Below are positions 6,140 to 45,780 of a stretch of DNA of 64,000 nt, one piece after another (position 1 is the stretch's first letter; each line of letters opens with the position of its first letter). The stretch lies in contig JAHFCU010000003.1 in assembly GCA_023249305.1 (NCBI GenBank), forward strand, positions 1 through 64,000, read 5' to 3'. The notes below the pieces were generated by a model, which was not told the DNA's origin, did not search any database, and saw only the letters and a list, made by a program, of their open reading frames with translations. Source of the DNA: Gemmatimonadota bacterium (GTDB taxonomy: Bacteria > Gemmatimonadota > Gemmatimonadetes > Gemmatimonadales > Gemmatimonadaceae). Made by a program: the position numbers and the translations under genes.

Positions 6140-6190
6140 CGGCCACGTGCGCGTCCCGAATCGACAGAGTGCCCCAGAGAGACAACAGAA

Positions 6191-6220
6191 GAGGGGCGCG
6201 CCGAATGCGGTGCGCCCCTC
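6191..6220 (+). terminator. GC-rich terminator flanked by inverted ACAACAGA/TCTGTTGT
   Basis: A 12-bp stem (GAGGGGCGCGCC / GGTGCGCCCCTC, one G-U pair) with a GAATGC loop sits 51 bases after the glycosidase. It is flanked by a perfect 8-bp inverted repeat, ACAACAGA at 6182-6189 and TCTGTTGT at 6230-6237, so the stem could be re-formed over a longer distance. Confidence 0.72.
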
Positions 6221-6230
6221 TCTCGTCGGT

Positions 6231-6270
6231 CTGTTGTACGCTGTTGTGCTCTGTCGTTTGCTGCTGTTAA
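6231..6270 (+). repeat. 10-bp CTGTTGTNCT tandem repeat, four units
   Basis: Four consecutive 10-base units start CTGTTGTACG, CTGTTGTGCT, CTGTCGTTTG and CTGCTGTTAA. The same unit family occurs after another terminator at 45741-45780. Function unknown. Confidence 0.65.
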
Positions 6271-9760: not shown

Positions 9761-10996
9761 TCACTCAATTAGCATCGACGCCGGATCTTCCATCAGTTCC
9801 TTGACCTTCACGAGGAAGAGCACGGCCTGCTGTCCGTCAATGACGCGGTGGTCGTACGACAGCGCGATGTACATCATCGGGCGGATCTCGACCTTTCCGC
9901 TGACCGCGACGGGGCGATCCTGCGTCTTATGCAGCCCGAGAATGGCCACCTGCGGGAAGTTGATGATCGGGGTCGAGAGCAACGAGCCGAAGACGCCACC
10001 GTTGGTGACGGTGAATGAGCCGCCGGTGAGATCTTCCATCGTCAGCTTGCCGTCGCGCGCCGTCTTCGCGAGCGCGGCGATGTCGCGCTGAAGGTCAAGA
10101 ATGCCCTTGCGGTCGGCGTCCTTCACGTTCGGCACGACGAGGCCTGCGTCACTGGCCACGGCGATGCCAAGGTTTACGTAGTGCTTGTAGAGGATAGCGT
10201 CGCCGTCTACCTGCGCGTTCACGGTGGGGAACGCCCTGAGCGCGAGGCACGCCGCCTTCGCGAAGAACGGCATGAAACTGAGCTTCAGGCCGTGCTCTTT
10301 CTCCACGCGCTCCTTCGTGCGCTCACGGAGCGCGGTGATCGCGCTCATGTCGATCTCGTTGAACGTCGTCAGGTGCGCCGTCGCGTGCTGGGCCTGGAGC
10401 AGGTTCTCGGCGATGCGCTTGCGCCGCGTGCTCATCGTCTCACGCGTTTCGCGCACGCCGGGAGCCGTGGCGGATGGCGAGCGGTCGGCTGCAGAACCAG
10501 CGGGCGGGGGCGCGACCGGCGCAGACGCAGGCGGGGTCGCGGTCGGTGCGCTCATTGCGACGATGACGTCAGGCGTGCTGACGACGCCACCGCGGCCGGT
10601 CCCTGTCACCTTGGACAGATCCATCCCCAACTCGGCGGCGAGGCGCATCGCACTTGGCGCCGCACGGACTTCGGCGGCGGTCGCCGCGGACGCCGGAGCG
10701 AACGCCGGCGCAGCAACGGCCGGTGCAGCCACGACCGCCACTGCCGCCGCCTCGGTTGCAACGCCGCTCTCATCCACGTCGCCGAGCAACTCGTTCACCT
10801 TGACGACGTCGCCCTCAAGCTTTGACCGGCGCGCGAGCACACCGCCCGCCATCGCCGGCACCTCGACGGTGATCTTGTCCGTCTCGAGTTCGATGAGCGT
10901 GTCCCCGATGTTAACGGCCTCACCCTCGCGCTTGAGCCAGCGCGAGATCGTGGCTTCGGTGATGGACTCGCCGAGGGGAGGGACGCGGATTTGCAT
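9761..10996 (-). CDS. sucB: Dihydrolipoamide succinyltransferase (E2 of 2-oxoglutarate dehydrogenase)
   Basis: A 411-residue E2 core protein. The N-terminal lipoyl domain (residues 1-77) carries the lipoylated K41 in ETDKITVEVPA. An Ala/Pro-rich linker leads to the E3-binding domain (about 113-150, PSAMRLAAELGMDLSKV), a second Ala/Pro linker follows, and the catalytic acyltransferase domain ends with H383 and D387 in SYDHRVIDGQQA. The ETDKITVEVPA motif and single lipoyl domain fit the succinyl form rather than the acetyl form. Reading frames extend upstream to 11272, but the lipoyl domain begins at ATG 10996, so that start is used. E1 (sucA) is not in the window. Confidence 0.93.
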   Translation of the reverse strand: MQIRVPPLGESITEATISRWLKREGEAVNIGDTLIELETDKITVEVPAMAGGVLARRSKLEGDVVKVNELLGDVDESGVATEAAAVAVVAAPAVAAPAFAPASAATAAEVRAAPSAMRLAAELGMDLSKVTGTGRGGVVSTPDVIVAMSAPTATPPASAPVAPPPAGSAADRSPSATAPGVRETRETMSTRRKRIAENLLQAQHATAHLTTFNEIDMSAITALRERTKERVEKEHGLKLSFMPFFAKAACLALRAFPTVNAQVDGDAILYKHYVNLGIAVASDAGLVVPNVKDADRKGILDLQRDIAALAKTARDGKLTMEDLTGGSFTVTNGGVFGSLLSTPIINFPQVAILGLHKTQDRPVAVSGKVEIRPMMYIALSYDHRVIDGQQAVLFLVKVKELMEDPASMLIE

Positions 10997-11005
10997 GCGA
11001 CAAGA

Positions 11006-11033
11006 TAGACGGTGGACGGTAGACGGCAGATGG
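11006..11033 (+). repeat. Heptamer repeat arm 1 (four units)
   Basis: Four contiguous heptamers TAGACGG, TGGACGG, TAGACGG and CAGATGG lie just upstream of the sucB start codon. They would be transcribed in the sucB leader as the reverse complement. Confidence 0.7.
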
Positions 11034-11119
11034 TAAATCGGCCGGGCCGAAATCGCTCTGCAAGCTAATATATTCGAACACGAACGGCGGCATCGATCTT
11101 GCGCTCGTTCAGTCGTCGA

Positions 11120-11145
11120 CCATCCACCGTCTGCCATCTGCCGTC
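11120..11145 (-). repeat. Heptamer repeat arm 2 (inverted copy)
   Basis: Read on the minus strand this arm is GACGG, CAGATGG, CAGACGG and TGGATGG, the same heptamer family as arm 1 in opposite orientation. It ends 2 bases before the GTG start of the oxidoreductase. The 12-base block CCATCTGCCGTC at 11134-11145 is an exact inverted match to 11022-11033. Confidence 0.7.
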
Positions 11146-11147
11146 TT

Positions 11148-12188
11148 GTGCGCGCCCTCACGATCTCCGCCACTGGTTCGCTCGACTGCGTCGAGTTTCG
11201 AAAGGACATCGTGCCGCCCACGCTTCCTGCGTCGGGGCACGTGCGAGTGCGCCTCCGCGCGGCGCCGCTCAATCACCTCGACTTGTGGACGATTCGCGGC
11301 TTGCCCGGCGTCAGCATCACACCGCCCTGGGTGATCGGCGCCGATGGCACGGGCGTCATTGCCGACGTCTCCGCCGACGTGATATCGCTGCACCGCGGCG
11401 ACCGCGTGGTGGTGAATCCCGGCCTCTCGTGCCGCCAGTGCGAATACTGCCGTGCCGGCGAGCACCCGCTGTGCGTGAGGTTCCGGGTCCTCGGCGAACA
11501 CGTGCCCGGGACGTTCGCGGACGAACTCGTCGTGCCGGCCACCAATGTGCGGCCGATTCCCGAGAGCGTGTCGGACACCGATGCCTCGGCCTTCGGGCTC
11601 GCGGCGATGACTGCGTGGCGGATGCTGGTGACGCGTGCGCAGGTGAAGGCCAGTGACGAAGTGCTGATCTGGGGCATCGGCGGAGGCGTGGCGCAAGCGG
11701 CGTTGCTGATCGCGAAGGCGCGCGGCGCGCGCGTGTGGGTTACGTCGGGATCAGACGCCAAGCTTGAACGCGCTCGCGCCATGGGGGCCGACGAGTTGAT
11801 CAACCACACGGGCGTTGACGTAGGCCGCGAGGTGCGTGCGCGCACGGGCAAGCGTGGCGTCAACGTGATCGTGGACAGCATTGGCGCGGCCACGTGGGAG
11901 CAGTCGCTGGGCGCGCTCGGCCGTGGGGGGCGCCTGGTCACGTGCGGTGGCACCTCGGGGCCTGCGTTGCAGACGGACGTGCGACGTCTGTTCTGGAATC
12001 AGTGGACGATCATGGGTTCGACGATGGGGAGCGACGCCGATTTCGATGCCATCGTCGGCGAGCTCGTGGCGGGCCGCCTGTCCCTGCCGGTTGATTCGGC
12101 GTTCCCGCTCGAGCACGGCCGCGATGCGCTCGCTCGCCTGCAGTCGGGAGCGCAGTTCGGCAAGATCGTTCTGCAGATTGGGGCGTGA
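11148..12188 (+). CDS. Zinc-type alcohol dehydrogenase/quinone oxidoreductase-like (MDR family)
   Basis: A 346-residue medium-chain dehydrogenase/reductase. The structural zinc lobe is intact (C95, C98, C101, C109 in SCRQCEYCRAGEHPLC), but the usual catalytic-zinc cysteine near residue 42 is replaced (PLNHLDLW, with Asn42), as in quinone-oxidoreductase-like members of this superfamily. The nucleotide-binding motif is GIGGGVAQAALLIAKARGA. It probably reduces a carbonyl or quinone substrate with NAD(P)H; the substrate is unknown. GTG 11148 is the only start that keeps the whole N-terminal fold. It ends overlapping the following zinc-ribbon gene (TGATG). Confidence 0.83.
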   Translation: MRALTISATGSLDCVEFRKDIVPPTLPASGHVRVRLRAAPLNHLDLWTIRGLPGVSITPPWVIGADGTGVIADVSADVISLHRGDRVVVNPGLSCRQCEYCRAGEHPLCVRFRVLGEHVPGTFADELVVPATNVRPIPESVSDTDASAFGLAAMTAWRMLVTRAQVKASDEVLIWGIGGGVAQAALLIAKARGARVWVTSGSDAKLERARAMGADELINHTGVDVGREVRARTGKRGVNVIVDSIGAATWEQSLGALGRGGRLVTCGGTSGPALQTDVRRLFWNQWTIMGSTMGSDADFDAIVGELVAGRLSLPVDSAFPLEHGRDALARLQSGAQFGKIVLQIGA

Positions 12189-45725: not shown

Positions 45726-45740
45726 TTCTGCTAGATGTCT

Positions 45741-45780
45741 CTGTTGTACTCTGTTGTTTTCTGTTGTTCTCTGTGCCTAG
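45741..45780 (+). repeat. 10-bp CTGTTGTNCT tandem repeat (second copy)
   Basis: Units CTGTTGTACT, CTGTTGTTTT, CTGTTGTTCT and CTGTGCCTAG follow the terminator. The last unit includes the stop codon of the convergent M14 peptidase gene. The first unit shares its first nine bases (CTGTTGTAC) with the array at 6231. Confidence 0.65.

Follow-up and report, generated by a model that had tools for sequence, protein, structure and literature searches.

Two divergently transcribed metabolic genes of a Gemmatimonadaceae bacterium are separated by a short region in which two arrays of similar heptamers point towards each other. Is this pair a device of the two genes that it separates, or does it belong to something larger? 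The window, that is, the whole 64,000-nucleotide stretch of DNA analyzed here, comes from contig C34 of a 2.5-Mb metagenome-assembled genome (MAG; G000, 78.6% complete), whose named relatives are Gemmatimonadaceae, with MAG M_DeepCast_65m_m1_262 among the nearest named records. An earlier note on this DNA had offered three readings of the pair: a shared translational control element, a regulator-binding array, or a mobile repeat that landed in inverted form around the promoter core.

The sucB/oxidoreductase locus

Pfam supported both gene assignments, a 2-oxoacid dehydrogenase acyltransferase (E2) and a zinc-type alcohol dehydrogenase/quinone-reductase-like oxidoreductase. The locus is organized as follows:

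9761-10996, minus strand: sucB-like 2-oxoacid dehydrogenase E2 with lipoyl, E3-binding and catalytic domains
11006-11033, plus strand: arm 1, four YRGAYGG heptamers, which in the sense of the sucB mRNA read (CCRTCYR)4 just 5′ of the ATG
11036-11113, no strand assigned: inter-arm core containing the palindromic AATATATT (11067-11074) and a TATATTA motif; likely a divergent promoter
11120-11146, minus strand: arm 2, an inverted array of three exact units and one imperfect unit, forming the pyrimidine-rich leader of the oxidoreductase
11148-12188, plus strand: zinc-type alcohol dehydrogenase/quinone-reductase-like oxidoreductase with a GTG start

The inverted, inward-facing arrays of four and about four units lie exactly where they had first been described. 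Arm 1 (TAGACGG TGGACGG TAGACGG CAGATGG) starts 9 nt away from the start codon of sucB (ATG, complement of 10994-10996), and arm 2, which on the minus strand reads (A)AGACGG CAGATGG CAGACGG TGGATGG, directly adjoins the GTG at 11148. As had been noted, both leaders are pyrimidine-rich, nearly identical in kind and devoid of a Shine-Dalgarno (SD) sequence, and both mRNAs probably begin with such a leader and without a ribosome binding site. The two arms, spaced 84 nt apart, are 79% complementary over 28 nt, and the region folded as one strand reached -65.2 kcal/mol against -45.4 ± 3.9 kcal/mol in shuffled sequences (z -5.07). Two-unit matches with at most one mismatch occurred seven times in the window (2.1 expected; seven were reached in 0/100 shuffles), and six of the seven belong to the arms. 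Scans of 10900-11300 for a sigma-70 consensus and for terminators gave no match, and an Rfam search returned only sub-threshold matches, with no family at its threshold.

Occurrence across the genome and the phylum

The heptamers are dispersed throughout the genome. A three-unit pattern matched G000 67 times, counting overlaps (28 forward, 39 reverse), which a manual tally of these matches resolved into about 31 array sites; a two-unit pattern matched 136 times. Across 275,751 contiguous bp of G118, a related genome, the arrays numbered 44 where an order-3 Markov model predicts 1.4, and they occupied 24 of the 151 intergenic regions that are 20 bp or longer. Markov shuffles took the place of a reversed-pattern control, which was not independent because reversed arrays themselves look like arrays. 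By pattern, all ten genomes of the genus contained arrays (8/8 in one scan, plus G118 and G120). Across the family, 23/118 genomes matched, patchily among genera, and a wider pattern of three GGNNGAY units matched 114/298 genomes of the phylum, many of them by only one or two matches; most belong to f1 and f2, two families within a single order. Around sucB in the named Gemmatimonadota loci (n = 33, several lacking the upstream flank), arrays of at least three units were found in L038 only.

Unit counts per array spread around 3-5. Most arrays lie between genes: over six genomes, 118 arrays were intergenic and 26 lay inside predicted genes, in stretches picked for holding arrays and with crude gene calls. 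The picture of inward arrays around a promoter-like core stands, but not a meaning specific to the two genes, since dozens of copies exist genome-wide. A regulator-binding array may still be the correct reading, in which case it would be a genome-wide system and not one of two genes.

Placement at gene edges and strand polarity

Placement was evaluated with a crude codon-usage gene predictor of our own, mostly (G118 aside) on stretches picked for holding arrays. The polarity counts cover arrays with genes on both sides, setting aside those mostly within predicted genes; G002 provided too little training sequence for the six-genome and five-genome counts, and the five-genome count further omits G107 and G019, which belong to another genus. 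The 5′ end of the purine-rich strand was nearer to the gene edge in 34/40 intergenic arrays of G000 and in 86/115 over six genomes, leaving 29/115 exceptions. Over five genomes of the genus, with tRNAs included and arrays whose two distances differed by ≤20 nt removed, 45/49 paired and 42/51 single arrays followed this polarity, as did 19/21 arrays in G075, which belongs to another genus (g29). In G118 alone, single arrays showed no bias (7/13).

Arrays are not confined to the leaders of start codons. They contacted stop codons 62 times and start codons 48 times; start edges carried 41 pyrimidine-sense and 7 purine-sense arrays, stop edges 47 purine-sense and 15 pyrimidine-sense arrays. The ends of tRNA genes carry arrays too (apparent examples in L034 and L144). 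A shared translational control element is not supported as the meaning of the arrays, since they border stop codons and tRNAs no less readily than start codons. None of 32 array-led genes had an SD sequence, against 107/321 other genes (crude gene calls), partly because a pyrimidine-rich leader excludes one by composition. Arrays at both edges of the same gene were found for 3/259 genes (0.7 expected, p 0.025), too weak a signal for the end-to-end pairing of mRNAs that we had considered. Two observations concern individual edges: in L144:2004-2285 (G112), a tRNA-like gene has flanking arrays on either side, both pointing away from it, and in L009, L010 and L028 the TAG stop is apparently provided by the TAGACGG unit of an array (crude gene calls).

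Neighboring arrays obey a stricter order. In nine f1 genomes, neighbors on opposite strands within 150 bp were purine-first in 61/61 cases, and 14 further neighbors lay on the same strand; the loops of the pairs range down to a few nucleotides. The one pyrimidine-first pair seen in f1, in L144, is more widely spaced and surrounds an apparent tRNA gene, so that the edge rule would still hold. Four genomes of the sister family f2 (G319, G142, G309 and G252) showed the reverse, with pyrimidine-first pairs in 28/28 cases, whereas a fifth (G229) was purine-first in 3/3. These f2 pairs are clear hairpins, mostly with short loops and several immediately 3′ of stop codons, and f2 leaders carry GGATGAC units. 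The reversal does not follow the unit: G252 has window-like GGCAGAY units with opposite polarity, and GGCTGAY units are common to G002 (f1) and G142 (f2), again with opposite polarities. Polarity is therefore a property of the lineage and not of the heptamer, and because four f2 genomes are reversed with the same unit type, no one interpretation of the purine strand holds for every lineage. A Rho/rut-like reading of the pyrimidine strand, which we had also considered, would as a general law clash with the reversed polarity of the sampled f2 genomes.

Inherited positions and renewed units

At the sucB locus, the TATATTA core between the arms kept a constant orientation relative to sucB in all eight genus genomes examined, which speaks against an invertible promoter between the arms. 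Both arms scored at least 15 in six of the eight (G000, G040, G118, G093, G119 and G120); G112 has a weak left arm and G062 a weak right arm. Beyond the genus, other members of the family (L039, L041-L044) have a TATATT motif in the sucB region, assigned as orthologous by position and motif without alignment, and no arms. This order of events would make the arms younger than the core and suggests that they joined an older promoter on both sides. A mobile repeat landing as an inverted pair does not agree with a core that occurs without arms outside the genus, nor with the finding that 20 cores share no sequence.

Elsewhere in the genome, array positions were also retained. Among ten orthologous intergenic regions with at least one array in a manually tallied comparison with G118, six had arrays in both genomes, one in the other genome only and three in G118 only, and several sites were common to different species with their orientation kept. 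Sequence similarity, by contrast, was no higher between orthologous than between non-orthologous arrays (0.56 versus 0.54, n = 19; a few loci hold several intergenic regions, and some pairings may therefore be wrong). Units were instead genome-specific at similar GC: C at position 3 reached 0.31 in G000, 0.75 in G012 and 0.14 in G118, where the pattern-based choice of stretches biases the G000 and G012 values towards YR. The sucB site itself holds GGG units in G040 and GG units in G000. Overall, inheritance largely maintains positions and orientation, while the sequence is renewed genome-wide; mutation or gene conversion could also account for this homogenization.

We had suspected that the two arms evolve in concert, because both sucB arms have GGGAGAC-type units in G040 and TGGACGG-type units in G118. 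Permutation did not bear this out, as arms of the same locus were neither more alike nor able to form stabler duplexes than arms of different loci in the same genome (p 0.12-1.0 in each genome with at least four pairs). A pooled signal of arm fit in f2 (p 0.005-0.007) arose because two genomes were mixed, and it disappeared within each genome.

Comparison with known repeats

Known repeats include the STRR heptamers of cyanobacteria and the repeats of trnL introns. Searches of open-licence PMC papers turned up no report of Gemmatimonadota heptamers. The known repeats most similar to these arrays are the GGGAATC class of heptamers in Xanthomonas and Nostoc (GGGAATC / GGGGA(C/T)T), tentatively linked to G-quadruplexes (Rehm et al. 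2015, PMC4692102). These heptamers occur mostly in about four copies, are intergenic and keep the same gene context in related species; the 5′ side of their G-rich strand lies near the neighboring ORF whatever its direction, and convergent inverted pairs number 70 and 75 in two Xanthomonas. The Gemmatimonadaceae arrays share tandem 7-bp units in about four copies, a dispersed and mostly intergenic distribution, gene context kept among related species, the placement of the G-rich strand (86/115, 45/49 and 42/51 in the counts above, reversed in the four f2 genomes) and the convergent pairs. We are highly confident that they belong to this kind of gene-edge repeat. They differ from the repeats described in PMC4692102 in phylum and unit, in occurring in divergent intergenic regions as well, in a unit that turns over between species, in a polarity that is flipped in some f2 genomes and in quadruplex tracts: a canonical four-run G3 motif was found in only 1/44 arrays of G000 and 6/139 over five genus genomes. 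Canonical quadruplexes are thus generally absent because the units are mostly GG and not GGG.

Other repeat classes resemble the arrays in part. TAACTGA heptamers of Beggiatoaceae likewise stand just 5′ of start codons in place of the ribosome binding site (MacGregor 2015, PMC4679880), but their unit is fixed, nearly all are direct repeats that face start codons and only one inverted repeat is described, whereas the Gemmatimonadaceae arrays occupy both kinds of edge, start and stop. In Geobacter metallireducens, heptanucleotide elements (PMC2700814) are also dispersed sets of four tandem heptamers, but with the unit GGGACCG and with occurrences in genes too. The GTAG and CGTC families of REP/BIME palindromes (Di Nocera et al. 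2013, PMC3733652) are similarly extragenic and often form close opposite pairs; the stems here are instead tandem heptamers lacking a fixed tag and palindrome. New in the present case are the phylum, the GG-only unit and a polarity that depends on lineage. The Xanthomonas/Nostoc architecture thereby extends to another phylum, where most units cannot give a canonical quadruplex; in four sampled relatives the placement rule holds in mirror image. GG units and mirror-image relatives together detach the placement rule from translation as well as from the chemistry of quadruplexes, and the choice of strand at gene edges becomes a testable question across related genomes.

Proposed role and alternative explanations

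We tentatively favor, at slightly less than even confidence, an explanation in which inherited gene-boundary arrays are kept uniform by a putative trans-acting process. Arms 1 and 2 are members of a dispersed, vertically inherited (GGNNGAY)n family found at gene edges genus-wide, each array lying between a gene edge (start, stop or tRNA end) and a functional intergenic core. The purine-rich strand leads out of the gene in this lineage, so that two arrays in one intergenic region face inward. At the sucB locus, the arms stand on either side of a probably older divergent promoter and would give both mRNAs their pyrimidine-rich, SD-less leaders, for these two genes probably a side effect. A sequence-specific process acting in trans, such as recombination between copies or a factor that binds DNA or RNA in a polar manner, would keep the units alike genome-wide and their orientation fixed, and the arrays would mark gene boundaries directionally and would not serve to control sucB and the oxidoreductase. 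Such a process seems to account for uniform units combined with fixed positions and polarity more readily than RNA stems, mobility or slippage by itself.

Passive persistence is an unlikely, though credible, alternative. Arrays would form and grow through replication slippage and would endure only in the narrow untranslated strips that separate a coding sequence from its promoter or terminator. Translation would sort their strand, since the purine strand brings ATG or GTG as well as SD-like words, which do harm in a leader. The rarity of arrays within genes, the spread of unit counts and a polarity that is stronger at start (41:7) than at stop edges (47:15) are in keeping with this explanation, which nevertheless leaves the polarity at stop and tRNA edges, the strict purine-first pairs, the f2 reversal with its GGATGAC-unit leaders and the single genome-wide unit type unexplained. 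It is improbable that the inverted pair itself is the unit, a REP-like RNA hairpin whose stem in crossing transcripts blocks exonucleases or aids termination. Pairs do recur, with loops as short as noted above; those of f2 form hairpins, several of them directly after stop codons, and the fold of the sucB upstream region is unusually stable. However, many arrays are single and yet polar (42/51; 19/21 in G075, which has few pairs), the arms are unmatched within loci, the terminator scan found none at the sucB locus, and no single mRNA there would hold both arms because the likely promoter sits between them.

Mobility, whether as a MITE, a RAYT-driven REP or a reverse-transcriptase-templated array whose copies landed here, seems quite improbable. 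The dispersed, multicopy nature of the family and its patchiness across genera favor such an element, and the strict polarity could mirror a founder hairpin; against this, several sites are shared by species in the same orientation and the arms surround an older core. We rejected a MITE since 20 between-arm cores gave no blastn match to one another at E ≤ 0.01, and RAYT/REP and reverse-transcriptase origins since a Y1 (RAYT-type) transposase (PF01797) and a reverse transcriptase were each detected in just 1/8 genus genomes, the MAGs being incomplete. G-quadruplex repeats, as proposed in Xanthomonas and Nostoc, are very improbable here: the architecture is that of the repeats described in PMC4692102 and some genomes have GGGAGAC units, but the scarcity of G3 motifs and the exchange of GGG for GG units at the sucB site between G040 and G000 speak against them.

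A further reading is more speculative and, in our estimate, improbable: a chromosome-wide directional code in which a lineage-specific polar factor would read the heptamers at both gene ends and insulate the promoter or terminator core. Factor and sites would co-evolve, and units would therefore change in concert throughout the genome while positions stay constant; the code would be flipped in the sampled f2 genomes.

Additional repeats

In genus g19 (L159, L160, L167, L171 and L174; G107 and G019), arrays often end in conserved GGCAGTTGGGA/GGCGGCTGGGA, and the stretches between paired arrays hold more inverted copies, as though these belonged to some bigger structured element. G075 contains near-perfect, often long (GGCAGAC)n arrays (L252-L271), mostly single and strongly polar; many are on short contigs, and they may break assemblies. 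Decamers of the type TCTGTTGTNN make up another dispersed tandem repeat in the window, next to hairpins that resemble terminators (6181-6260 and 45738-45774). At 6181-6260, inverted decamer copies flank the hairpin with the purine arm first. TCTGTTGT occurs six times in the window against 0.78 expected, and genome-wide the two-unit decamer pattern matched 28 times, its reversed form 0 times.
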